A stretch of 64,000 nucleotides of DNA, taken from contig NZ_CP019070.1 in NCBI RefSeq assembly GCF_001956695.1, forward strand, positions 1 to 64,000. Reading direction: 5' to 3'. The translations under genes were made by a program, and so were the position numbers. Under the pieces are notes generated by a model. That model was not told the DNA's origin. It ran no database searches and saw only the letters and a program-made list of their open reading frames with translations. This DNA comes from Poseidonibacter parvus (GTDB lineage: Bacteria > Campylobacterota > Campylobacteria > Campylobacterales > Arcobacteraceae). Positions 15,459 to 58,957 of the stretch are shown one piece after another (position 1 is the first letter of the stretch; each line of letters starts with the position of its first letter).

Positions 15459-15848
15459 ATGGGTTCTAAAAATAGAATATTTCTGGGTTTAATTAGTAAT
15501 CATATTTTACATAAAATTAGAAATACTTTTAAAAAAAGAGTTTGTATGACAGATTCTACGGTAAAGAAAATAGAGGAAAAACATCCTCCTTTAGATAAAG
15601 AGTTTATACATAGTAACAATTTTCAAATAGTAATTGATAATACATTAATGATTTATTATGATGATAAAGATAGAATATATAATTGTTTATCAAAAGTCGA
15701 TAATAAACTTCTTGTTTATGGTTTGGTTTCTAAAAATAAAAGAACTGAAGTTTCAACTTTATTTCAAACAAATCCAAGTCAAGTTAAGAAAAATTTTAAA
15801 GAAAATAAAAATATAATAGTACTTAAAGAAGAATTTACTACAAATTAA
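15459..15848 (+). CDS. Uncharacterised small protein downstream of nrdB
   Basis: A 129-residue basic protein that I do not recognise. No signal peptide or membrane segment is visible. The central part (about 50-95) looks like a small beta-rich fold (FQIVIDNTLMIYYDDKD, KLLVYGLVSKN). The N-terminal 29 residues are Lys/Arg-rich. The ATG at 15459 has a good AGGAG eight bases upstream; an internal ATG at 15546 is an alternative. It starts 18 bp after nrdB, so it probably shares that transcript. Its stop codon lies within the closing helix of the structured element that follows. Confidence 0.55.
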   Translation: MGSKNRIFLGLISNHILHKIRNTFKKRVCMTDSTVKKIEEKHPPLDKEFIHSNNFQIVIDNTLMIYYDDKDRIYNCLSKVDNKLLVYGLVSKNKRTEVSTLFQTNPSQVKKNFKENKNIIVLKEEFTTN

Positions 15849-15956
15849 GAGGCGGGAGAGAACCTCCCCGCATCTTTCCTGAACTAGTTACGCCCTGCTA
15901 TTAATAGCTAAAAGTTCAAGGCACATGGAATCCCTAATTTCCACCTCTCTTAATTT
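15842..15956. ncRNA. Unassigned structured RNA candidate
   Basis: A 115-nt block clearly richer in G+C than its surroundings, with no plausible reading frame. It can fold into a closed junction. The closing helix is 15842-15851 with 15947-15956 (10 bp). Hairpin A is 15852-15858 with 15864-15871 (one bulged C). Arm B is 15878-15884 with 15914-15921 (one bulge), containing an inner hairpin 15897-15908. Hairpin C is 15926-15930 with 15939-15943. In such an AT-rich genome a G+C island of this kind usually marks a stable RNA. It is not SRP RNA (found elsewhere) and lacks tmRNA or RNase P landmarks. 6S RNA is possible but would be unusually short. Strand is undecided; a TATAAT-rich region lies on its right side. 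Confidence 0.45.
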
Positions 15957-16035
15957 ATTACTGATATTATGACATAATTATAATAAAAATATTCTATTTA
16001 AACTCATAAACTAAATAATGATTTTAACAATGTCT

Positions 16036-58495: not shown

Positions 58496-58957
58496 ATGGA
58501 TTTTAAAGAAATCAAAGAATTAATAAGAGTATTTGACAAGAGTGCATTAAACAAATTAAAAGTTAAAGATGGAGAATTTGAAATCTCTATGCAAACTGGA
58601 TTTGAAGGTGGTACGGTTGTAACTACTGCTGCTGCACCTGTTGCTGCACCAATTGCTCCTGTTGCAGCACCTGTTGCTGTTGCTAGTTCTGAAGCTGCAG
58701 TAAGCACTGCTGTTACTGGTGATACAATTGATTCGCCAATGGTAGGAACATACTATGCTTCTCCATCACCTGAAGCTCCTGCATTTGTAAAAGCTGGAGA
58801 TACAGTTAAAAAAGGTCAAACTTTATGTATCTTAGAAGCTATGAAAATTATGAATGAAGTTGAAGCTGAATTTGATTGTAAGATTATTGACATCTTAGTT
58901 AAAGATGGTGACCCAGTTGAATATGATATGCCTATATTTACTGTAGAAAAAATATAA
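58496..58957 (+). CDS. accB: Acetyl-CoA carboxylase biotin carboxyl carrier protein
   Basis: A 153-residue carrier subunit. The N-terminal segment MDFKEIKELIRVFDKSALNK is followed by an Ala/Pro-rich linker (about 50-75). The biotinyl domain has the modified Lys in EAMKIMNEVEAEF (about 121). Upstream in-frame codons back to 58469 exist, but the ATG at 58496 has AAAGG six bases before it and begins the known family N terminus. It is followed after 9 bp by accC; the two form the biotin module of fatty-acid synthesis. Confidence 0.95.
   Translation: MDFKEIKELIRVFDKSALNKLKVKDGEFEISMQTGFEGGTVVTTAAAPVAAPIAPVAAPVAVASSEAAVSTAVTGDTIDSPMVGTYYASPSPEAPAFVKAGDTVKKGQTLCILEAMKIMNEVEAEFDCKIIDILVKDGDPVEYDMPIFTVEKI

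Follow-up and report, generated by a model that had tools for sequence, protein, structure and literature searches.

Skipping-rope RNA convergent with a predicted BECR-fold ribonuclease gene in Poseidonibacter parvus suggests an RNA-protein toxin-antitoxin module

Analysis of the first 64,000 nt of the Poseidonibacter parvus contig NZ_CP019070.1 (hereafter, the window) revealed that a GC-rich island encodes, on the minus strand, an RNA of the Rfam skipping-rope family (RF02924) that is convergent with a small gene whose product is predicted to adopt a ribonuclease fold (Table 1). Because RNAs of this family lie constantly beside toxin-like RNase genes on phages, plasmids, and chromosomes, we suggest that the RNA acts as antidote in a toxin-antitoxin system that has been overlooked. 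In our view, the RNA and the gene preceding it probably constitute a toxin-antitoxin module of two genes, with the RNA neutralizing the nuclease by direct binding. Specifically, the gene product would be a small, toxic BECR-fold endoribonuclease, while the RNA, transcribed from its own promoter on the strand opposite the gene, would fold into a compact three-arm structure, with helix P1 closing it and kissing between the loops of hairpins 1 and 3 locking it. The RNA would block the nuclease through direct contact, probably as a substrate mimic, and the module might serve element maintenance or phage defense. The RNA family is already known; what is new is its protein partner.

Table 1. Positions of the skipping-rope RNA, its structural parts, candidate promoter elements, and the partner gene in the window
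Feature	Position	Strand	Details
Skipping-rope RNA (RF02924), 111 nt	15844..15954	-	38.5 bits, gathering score 36.7, E 6.6e-8
P1 closing helix, 5′ arm	15947..15954	-	8 bp, 3 pairs changed on both sides
P1 closing helix, 3′ arm; contains complement of the ORF stop codon	15844..15851	-	
Hairpin 1 (GUGGA / UCCAU); loop GGGA at 15934-15931	15925..15944	-	
Middle arm P2, inner part variable	15878..15920	-	7 of 8 pairs changed on both sides
Hairpin 3 (GCGGG / CCCGC); loop UCUC at 15861-15858, able to kiss GGGA of hairpin 1	15852..15871	-	
Possible -10 box CATAAT	15966..15971	-	11 nt before P1; predicted for the window
Alternative -10 box TATAAT	15982-15977	-	
Partner gene, predicted BECR-fold ribonuclease (candidate toxin)	15459..15848	+	129 aa; His42 invariant, S/T in strand 4

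The island at 15844-15954 has a G+C content of 44%, versus 27.8% for the whole window, and ~0.5% of the 111-nt windows in this DNA equal it in G+C, the matches listed including the island itself and a region near 58.6 kb. In the latter region, positions 58560-58583 form another stretch matching the skipping-rope RNA in G+C richness. Folding of the island gave -32.1 kcal/mol (z, -3.8) for the plus strand and -36.9 kcal/mol (z, -2.8) for the minus strand, and the computed fold comprised a closing helix with three arms. A preliminary description of this DNA, made from the letters alone, had proposed a GC-rich, non-coding structured RNA with a closing helix and three arms, in which the closing helix overlaps the preceding gene's stop codon. 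The island is indeed a real and conserved structured RNA, the helix and its arms are seen in both the fold and the covariation (see below), and the TAA stop codon (15846-15848) lies inside P1. The description left the strand unfixed; we assign the RNA to the minus strand because both the Rfam match and the G-U pairs kept across relatives belong to that strand. Specifically, alignment pairs 12-31 (GC 5, GU 4) and 37-113 (UG 8) are of standard type when read as the minus strand and would be C-A on the plus strand.

The same description called the RNA unassigned and advised a search of Rfam. That label no longer holds, since a permissive Infernal search of the short stretch matched RF02924 on the minus strand above the gathering score, placing the RNA in a known family; the default fast Infernal/Rfam filters returned no match in the whole window, and the permissive short-stretch search was needed. 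The other Rfam matches at the island (rli48, SIB, and sraA) fell far under the gathering score and were rejected, and no tRNA or tmRNA was found. A genome-wide search identified a single RF02924 copy, and the RF02924 cutoff was passed in none of 14 control genomes and in few members of the window's bacterial family. A DNA search found no copy of the RNA in congeners, and blastn of phages and plasmids with the window RNA gave no matches. The skipping-rope motif is said to have been first described by Weinberg in 2017, and our literature search found no function for RF02924.

Covariation, a check that had also been advised, strongly supported the structure. In an alignment of nine RNAs from the same bacterial family (A4, window included), 97.8% of the cells were paired, versus 48-52% in slid-partner controls, and 15 of the 30 pairs had changes on both sides. 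A canonical alignment with the same layout, consisting of 26 distinct rows from phages and plasmids (one row being a window-family RNA), was 96.7% paired, versus 36-48% in the controls, and both partners had changed in 22 of its 26 pairs. The kissing loop of four pairs that joins hairpins 1 and 3 showed 97.1% standard pairs in the nine relatives and 100% in the canonical RNAs, in which changes on both sides occurred in 9; the third kissing pair among the latter was CG in 11, UA in 9, and UG in 5, with 0 mismatches. This kissing loop probably corresponds to the pseudoknot of the Rfam family, which is depicted for RF02924 in the Rfam 14 paper (PMC7779021). The window RNA resembles RF02924 in its three-arm layout, its hairpin 1-hairpin 3 pseudoknot, and a score above the gathering score; however, its middle arm is longer (111 nt in total versus 80 model positions), its kissing sequence is GGGA/UCUC rather than GGU/ACC or GGC/GCC, and it is convergent with its gene. 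Our own covariance model (R1) scored the window RNA at 117 bits, the window RNA being itself a member of R1.

Five relatives (L003, L011, L013, L014, and L015) have promoter-like hexamer pairs in which 10-12 nt separate the -10 box from P1, and in four of these (L003, L013, L014, and L015) the -35/-10 pairs ahead of P1 are near perfect. The window itself has two candidate -10 boxes (Table 1), with no clear -35 ahead of CATAAT. Hexamers of this kind, present ahead of the RNA in many loci, argue against the RNA being a 3′-end processing, stability, or terminator element of the neighboring mRNA, as do the kissing loop, the existence of solo copies, and the fact that the structured strand is the opposite one in convergent loci. 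Although the RNA is located at the 3′ end of the gene and T-rich stretches follow P1 in some loci, we regard such a 3′-end element as very unlikely.

The partner gene follows nrdB and terminates in P1 of the RNA. Pfam and PHROGs searches gave nothing significant for the window protein; among 104 genomes of the bacterial family, we found seven full-length homologs in seven genomes. In all seven, the RNA is convergent at the 3′ end of the gene, and the stop codon lies within the P1 3′ arm in most of them and slightly past P1 in the others. His42 and a C-terminal Ser/Thr are likewise retained in 7/7 homologs. An eighth, weak homolog match (L016) was rejected as not a member. The AlphaFold model (AF2) of the window protein, with a modest pLDDT of 69, consists of N-terminal helices followed by a four-strand sheet. 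Its best match among solved structures was BrnT (PDB 3u97; Z 8.3, rmsd 2.2, 75 residues, 5% identity), which came from VIA re-ranking, with Foldseek against the PDB giving nothing below E 0.1; MqsR, RelE, HigB, and colicin-type and CDI toxins followed BrnT among the matches listed. On the question of a ToxN-like fold, the matches listed are mostly BECR toxins, in a listing that may miss families. The best viral structure matches include phage minor-capsid and uncharacterized proteins. Taken as a model-based prediction, the window protein has a BECR/RelE ribonuclease fold.

Homology of the window family to the PBECR proteins of Bacillota is a weaker link. The window protein gave no match to PBECR3 (PF18812) in a Pfam test that required >30 bits, and its relative L003 scored 13 bits (E 0.096). 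A weak hhalign match joined the window family to Bacillota PBECRs (E 0.0012, probability 19%), and the window family profile matched a Macrococcus PBECR at E 0.007. A viral-contig protein search with A2 gave no matches. Along with the fold and the active-site pattern, the sub-threshold Pfam score, the hhalign result, and the profile match point to a diverged relative of PBECR (PF18812/PF18810) under the Pfam cutoff. PBECR domains have been described as predicted RNases with an invariant His and C-terminal Ser/Thr active-site pair, of which solo versions were noted; the passages found mention no noncoding RNA partner (PMC5512222).

The pairing of RNA and nuclease gene extends to phages and plasmids. 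When the canonical-RNA pattern was scanned over viral contigs, four contigs found via the RNA carried a PBECR3 gene (Pfam E 3e-17 to 5e-26) located 42-70 nt upstream on the same strand. The first viral pattern matches (L025 and L026) were chance matches within coding DNA, and L007, L022, L024, and L027 were rejected as chance or partial matches. A model of the viral-contig PBECR had no solved match above Z 5. This protein was also queried, without the RNA, against annotated phages and plasmids, and a distant member was queried again. RF02924 scored 50-70 bits at 6-136 nt after the stop codon in 14/14 retrieved, protein-selected loci that have downstream sequence, from a query protein picked for its adjoining RNA and with homologs reaching down to ~22% identity. 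The 14 loci represent about eight lineages of Bacillota and a Treponema (Streptococcus suis phages, Treponema, Brevibacillus, Macrococcus/Macrococcoides, Sporosarcina, Priestia, Enterococcus/S. thermophilus, and Bacillus pTA1060-type plasmids); a fifteenth locus (Javan254), whose record stops at the gene, is outside the count. The presence of both partners in phages and plasmids, where some RNAs stand alone or by other toxins, could also be read as independent cargo meeting in mobile elements. We consider mere passengers very unlikely, given that the RNA was found in 14/14 protein-selected loci and with 7/7 homologs, in two distant groups, and always on the 3′ side of the gene. The other toxins are a PemK upstream of the RNA in L038 and a Gp49/HigB-type gene downstream of it in L048.

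Several of these loci have features of their own. In one (L053, 1939-2125), a tandem pair of skipping-rope RNAs follows a single PBECR3 gene. In the Streptococcus phages L054-L057, the PBECR ("spbA") gene is the immediate downstream neighbor of the lysin gene and, in records with an annotated attachment site, lies close to that site, which is the usual position of prophage cargo. In pTA1060 (L074, 1879-2117) and L075, a PBECR2 gene and a convergent skipping-rope RNA adjoin RF01691, the Bacillus-plasmid RNA.

The gene-RNA layout is tandem in most loci and convergent in B. subtilis pTA1060 (L074), a B. velezensis plasmid (L075), and the window family. This varied orientation favors RNA-protein contact over antisense pairing. 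A type I-like mechanism, in which the RNA would repress the toxin mRNA by base pairing to its 3′ UTR, fits the convergent layout, as gene and RNA transcripts overlap at the stop codon in both the window and its relatives. However, most PBECR loci are tandem on the same strand, so that antisense pairing is impossible there, and the fold and kissing loop are conserved nonetheless. The coexistence of tandem and convergent layouts with a conserved fold makes antisense improbable as the common mechanism, and we assign it little likelihood. Direct RNA-protein binding that blocks the BECR ribonuclease is the most likely mode of action.

Loss of the two partners proved one-sided. In L004 (G093, after nrdB), an internal deletion has reduced the gene to MGSKN and its final codons, yet the RNA is intact (120 bits); L005 and L020 have the RNA and lack the gene, and solo RNAs occur in several phage lineages for which a profile search of the surrounding DNA found no PBECR ORF. 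No intact gene of these subfamilies was found without the RNA, and the sole RNA-less homolog (L017) is a truncated gene near a contig end in a Sulfurimonas MAG. Such a pattern is what an antidote predicts, but an obligate cofactor would also explain the absence of gene-only loci. The RNA could thus be a cofactor, guide, or activator that forms a ribonucleoprotein effector with the nuclease, consistent with the constant pairing in either orientation and the conserved loops. Against this stand the conserved solo RNAs without a visible gene (L004, L005, L020, and several phage lineages), since a cofactor by itself would serve no purpose if the cell did not supply the protein from another locus; we therefore judge a cofactor role unlikely, though less so than the other alternatives, and favor neutralization of the nuclease by the RNA. 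The gene-less RNA of L020 (887-1500, oriented) comes right after a nucleotidyltransferase (MNT-like) gene and a HEPN-like gene that is broken, an arrangement that looks like the remnant of a toxin-antitoxin locus. The solo phage or satellite RNAs in L036, L042, and L048 lie beside tRNA-like sequences, as judged by eye.

The module is accessory. It is absent from 9/9 nrdB 3′ flanks of useful length in relatives, and in G004 window-like sequence resumes directly after nrdB without the module. In three genomes, each from a different genus (G000, G019, and G093), it follows nrdB, and it lies elsewhere in the others, with integrase or recombinase genes adjoining it in L003, L013, and L014. The RNA, which the preliminary description placed after the nrd operon, is unrelated to that operon and travels with the preceding orphan gene, two points absent from that description.

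The pairing is limited to some subfamilies, since three solo PBECR3 genes of the same family (L067-L069) lack skipping-rope. Another conserved stretch is present at the 3′ end of these genes (L067, 1349-1510; L068, 1790-2000; L069, downstream of 1507). Its opposite-strand reading closes with a terminator hairpin that shows covariation, has GGTC in its loop, and is accompanied by a T-run; 67 nt of the stretch are 94% identical between two genomes. This stretch is possibly a second, undescribed partner RNA.

On a broader view, RF02924 may be the antitoxin of a widespread RNA-protein class with BECR/PBECR toxins in either orientation, ranging from Campylobacterota to Bacillota and Treponema plasmids and including the laboratory plasmid pTA1060, with the solo phage copies, some near tRNA-like sequences, acting as decoys; we find this generalization about evenly balanced. 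Among the papers covered by the literature search, none links RF02924 or PBECR to toxin-antitoxin systems, and priority is accordingly uncertain. The constant protein partner gives RF02924 a candidate function that is readily testable in Bacillus subtilis or E. coli. If the proposal is true, RNA antitoxins reach the large BECR superfamily (RelE, colicin E5/D, and CDI toxins), which is otherwise controlled by proteins. It would also give meaning to genes annotated as "spbA," "plasmid-related protein," or "PBECR2 nuclease fold" on plasmids and prophages, and the solo phage RNAs might have a counter-defense role.

Among known systems, BrnTA offers the closest solved fold to the window protein in BrnT, whose antitoxin is a protein and differs in this from the RNA proposed here. 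On phages and plasmids, the partner genes are similar to the PBECR families PF18812/PF18810. Type III systems (ToxIN, CptIN, TenpIN, and AbiQ) are likewise mobile-element pairs of a small ribonuclease-like protein and a compact structured RNA; however, their toxins have the ToxN fold, whereas a BECR fold is predicted here, and their RNA is an upstream repeat array, whereas the present RNA occurs as one unit (two in L053 only) located downstream or convergent. Because no upstream array of short repeats is found here, we say that the module would work like type III and do not file it as type III. The work that established the AbiF RNA motif (RF03085) as an RNA antitoxin also states that the other known type III toxins are homologous to ToxIN (PMC12373285). 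The AbiF system resembles ours in being phage-borne and in having a conserved RNA motif that began as an orphan, but AbiF is an Abi_2 protein with the RNA upstream in two motif copies, whereas the present partner is a putative BECR nuclease and the RNA belongs to another family. By analogy, AbiF with RF03085 provides the best precedent for RF02924 as a candidate antitoxin.
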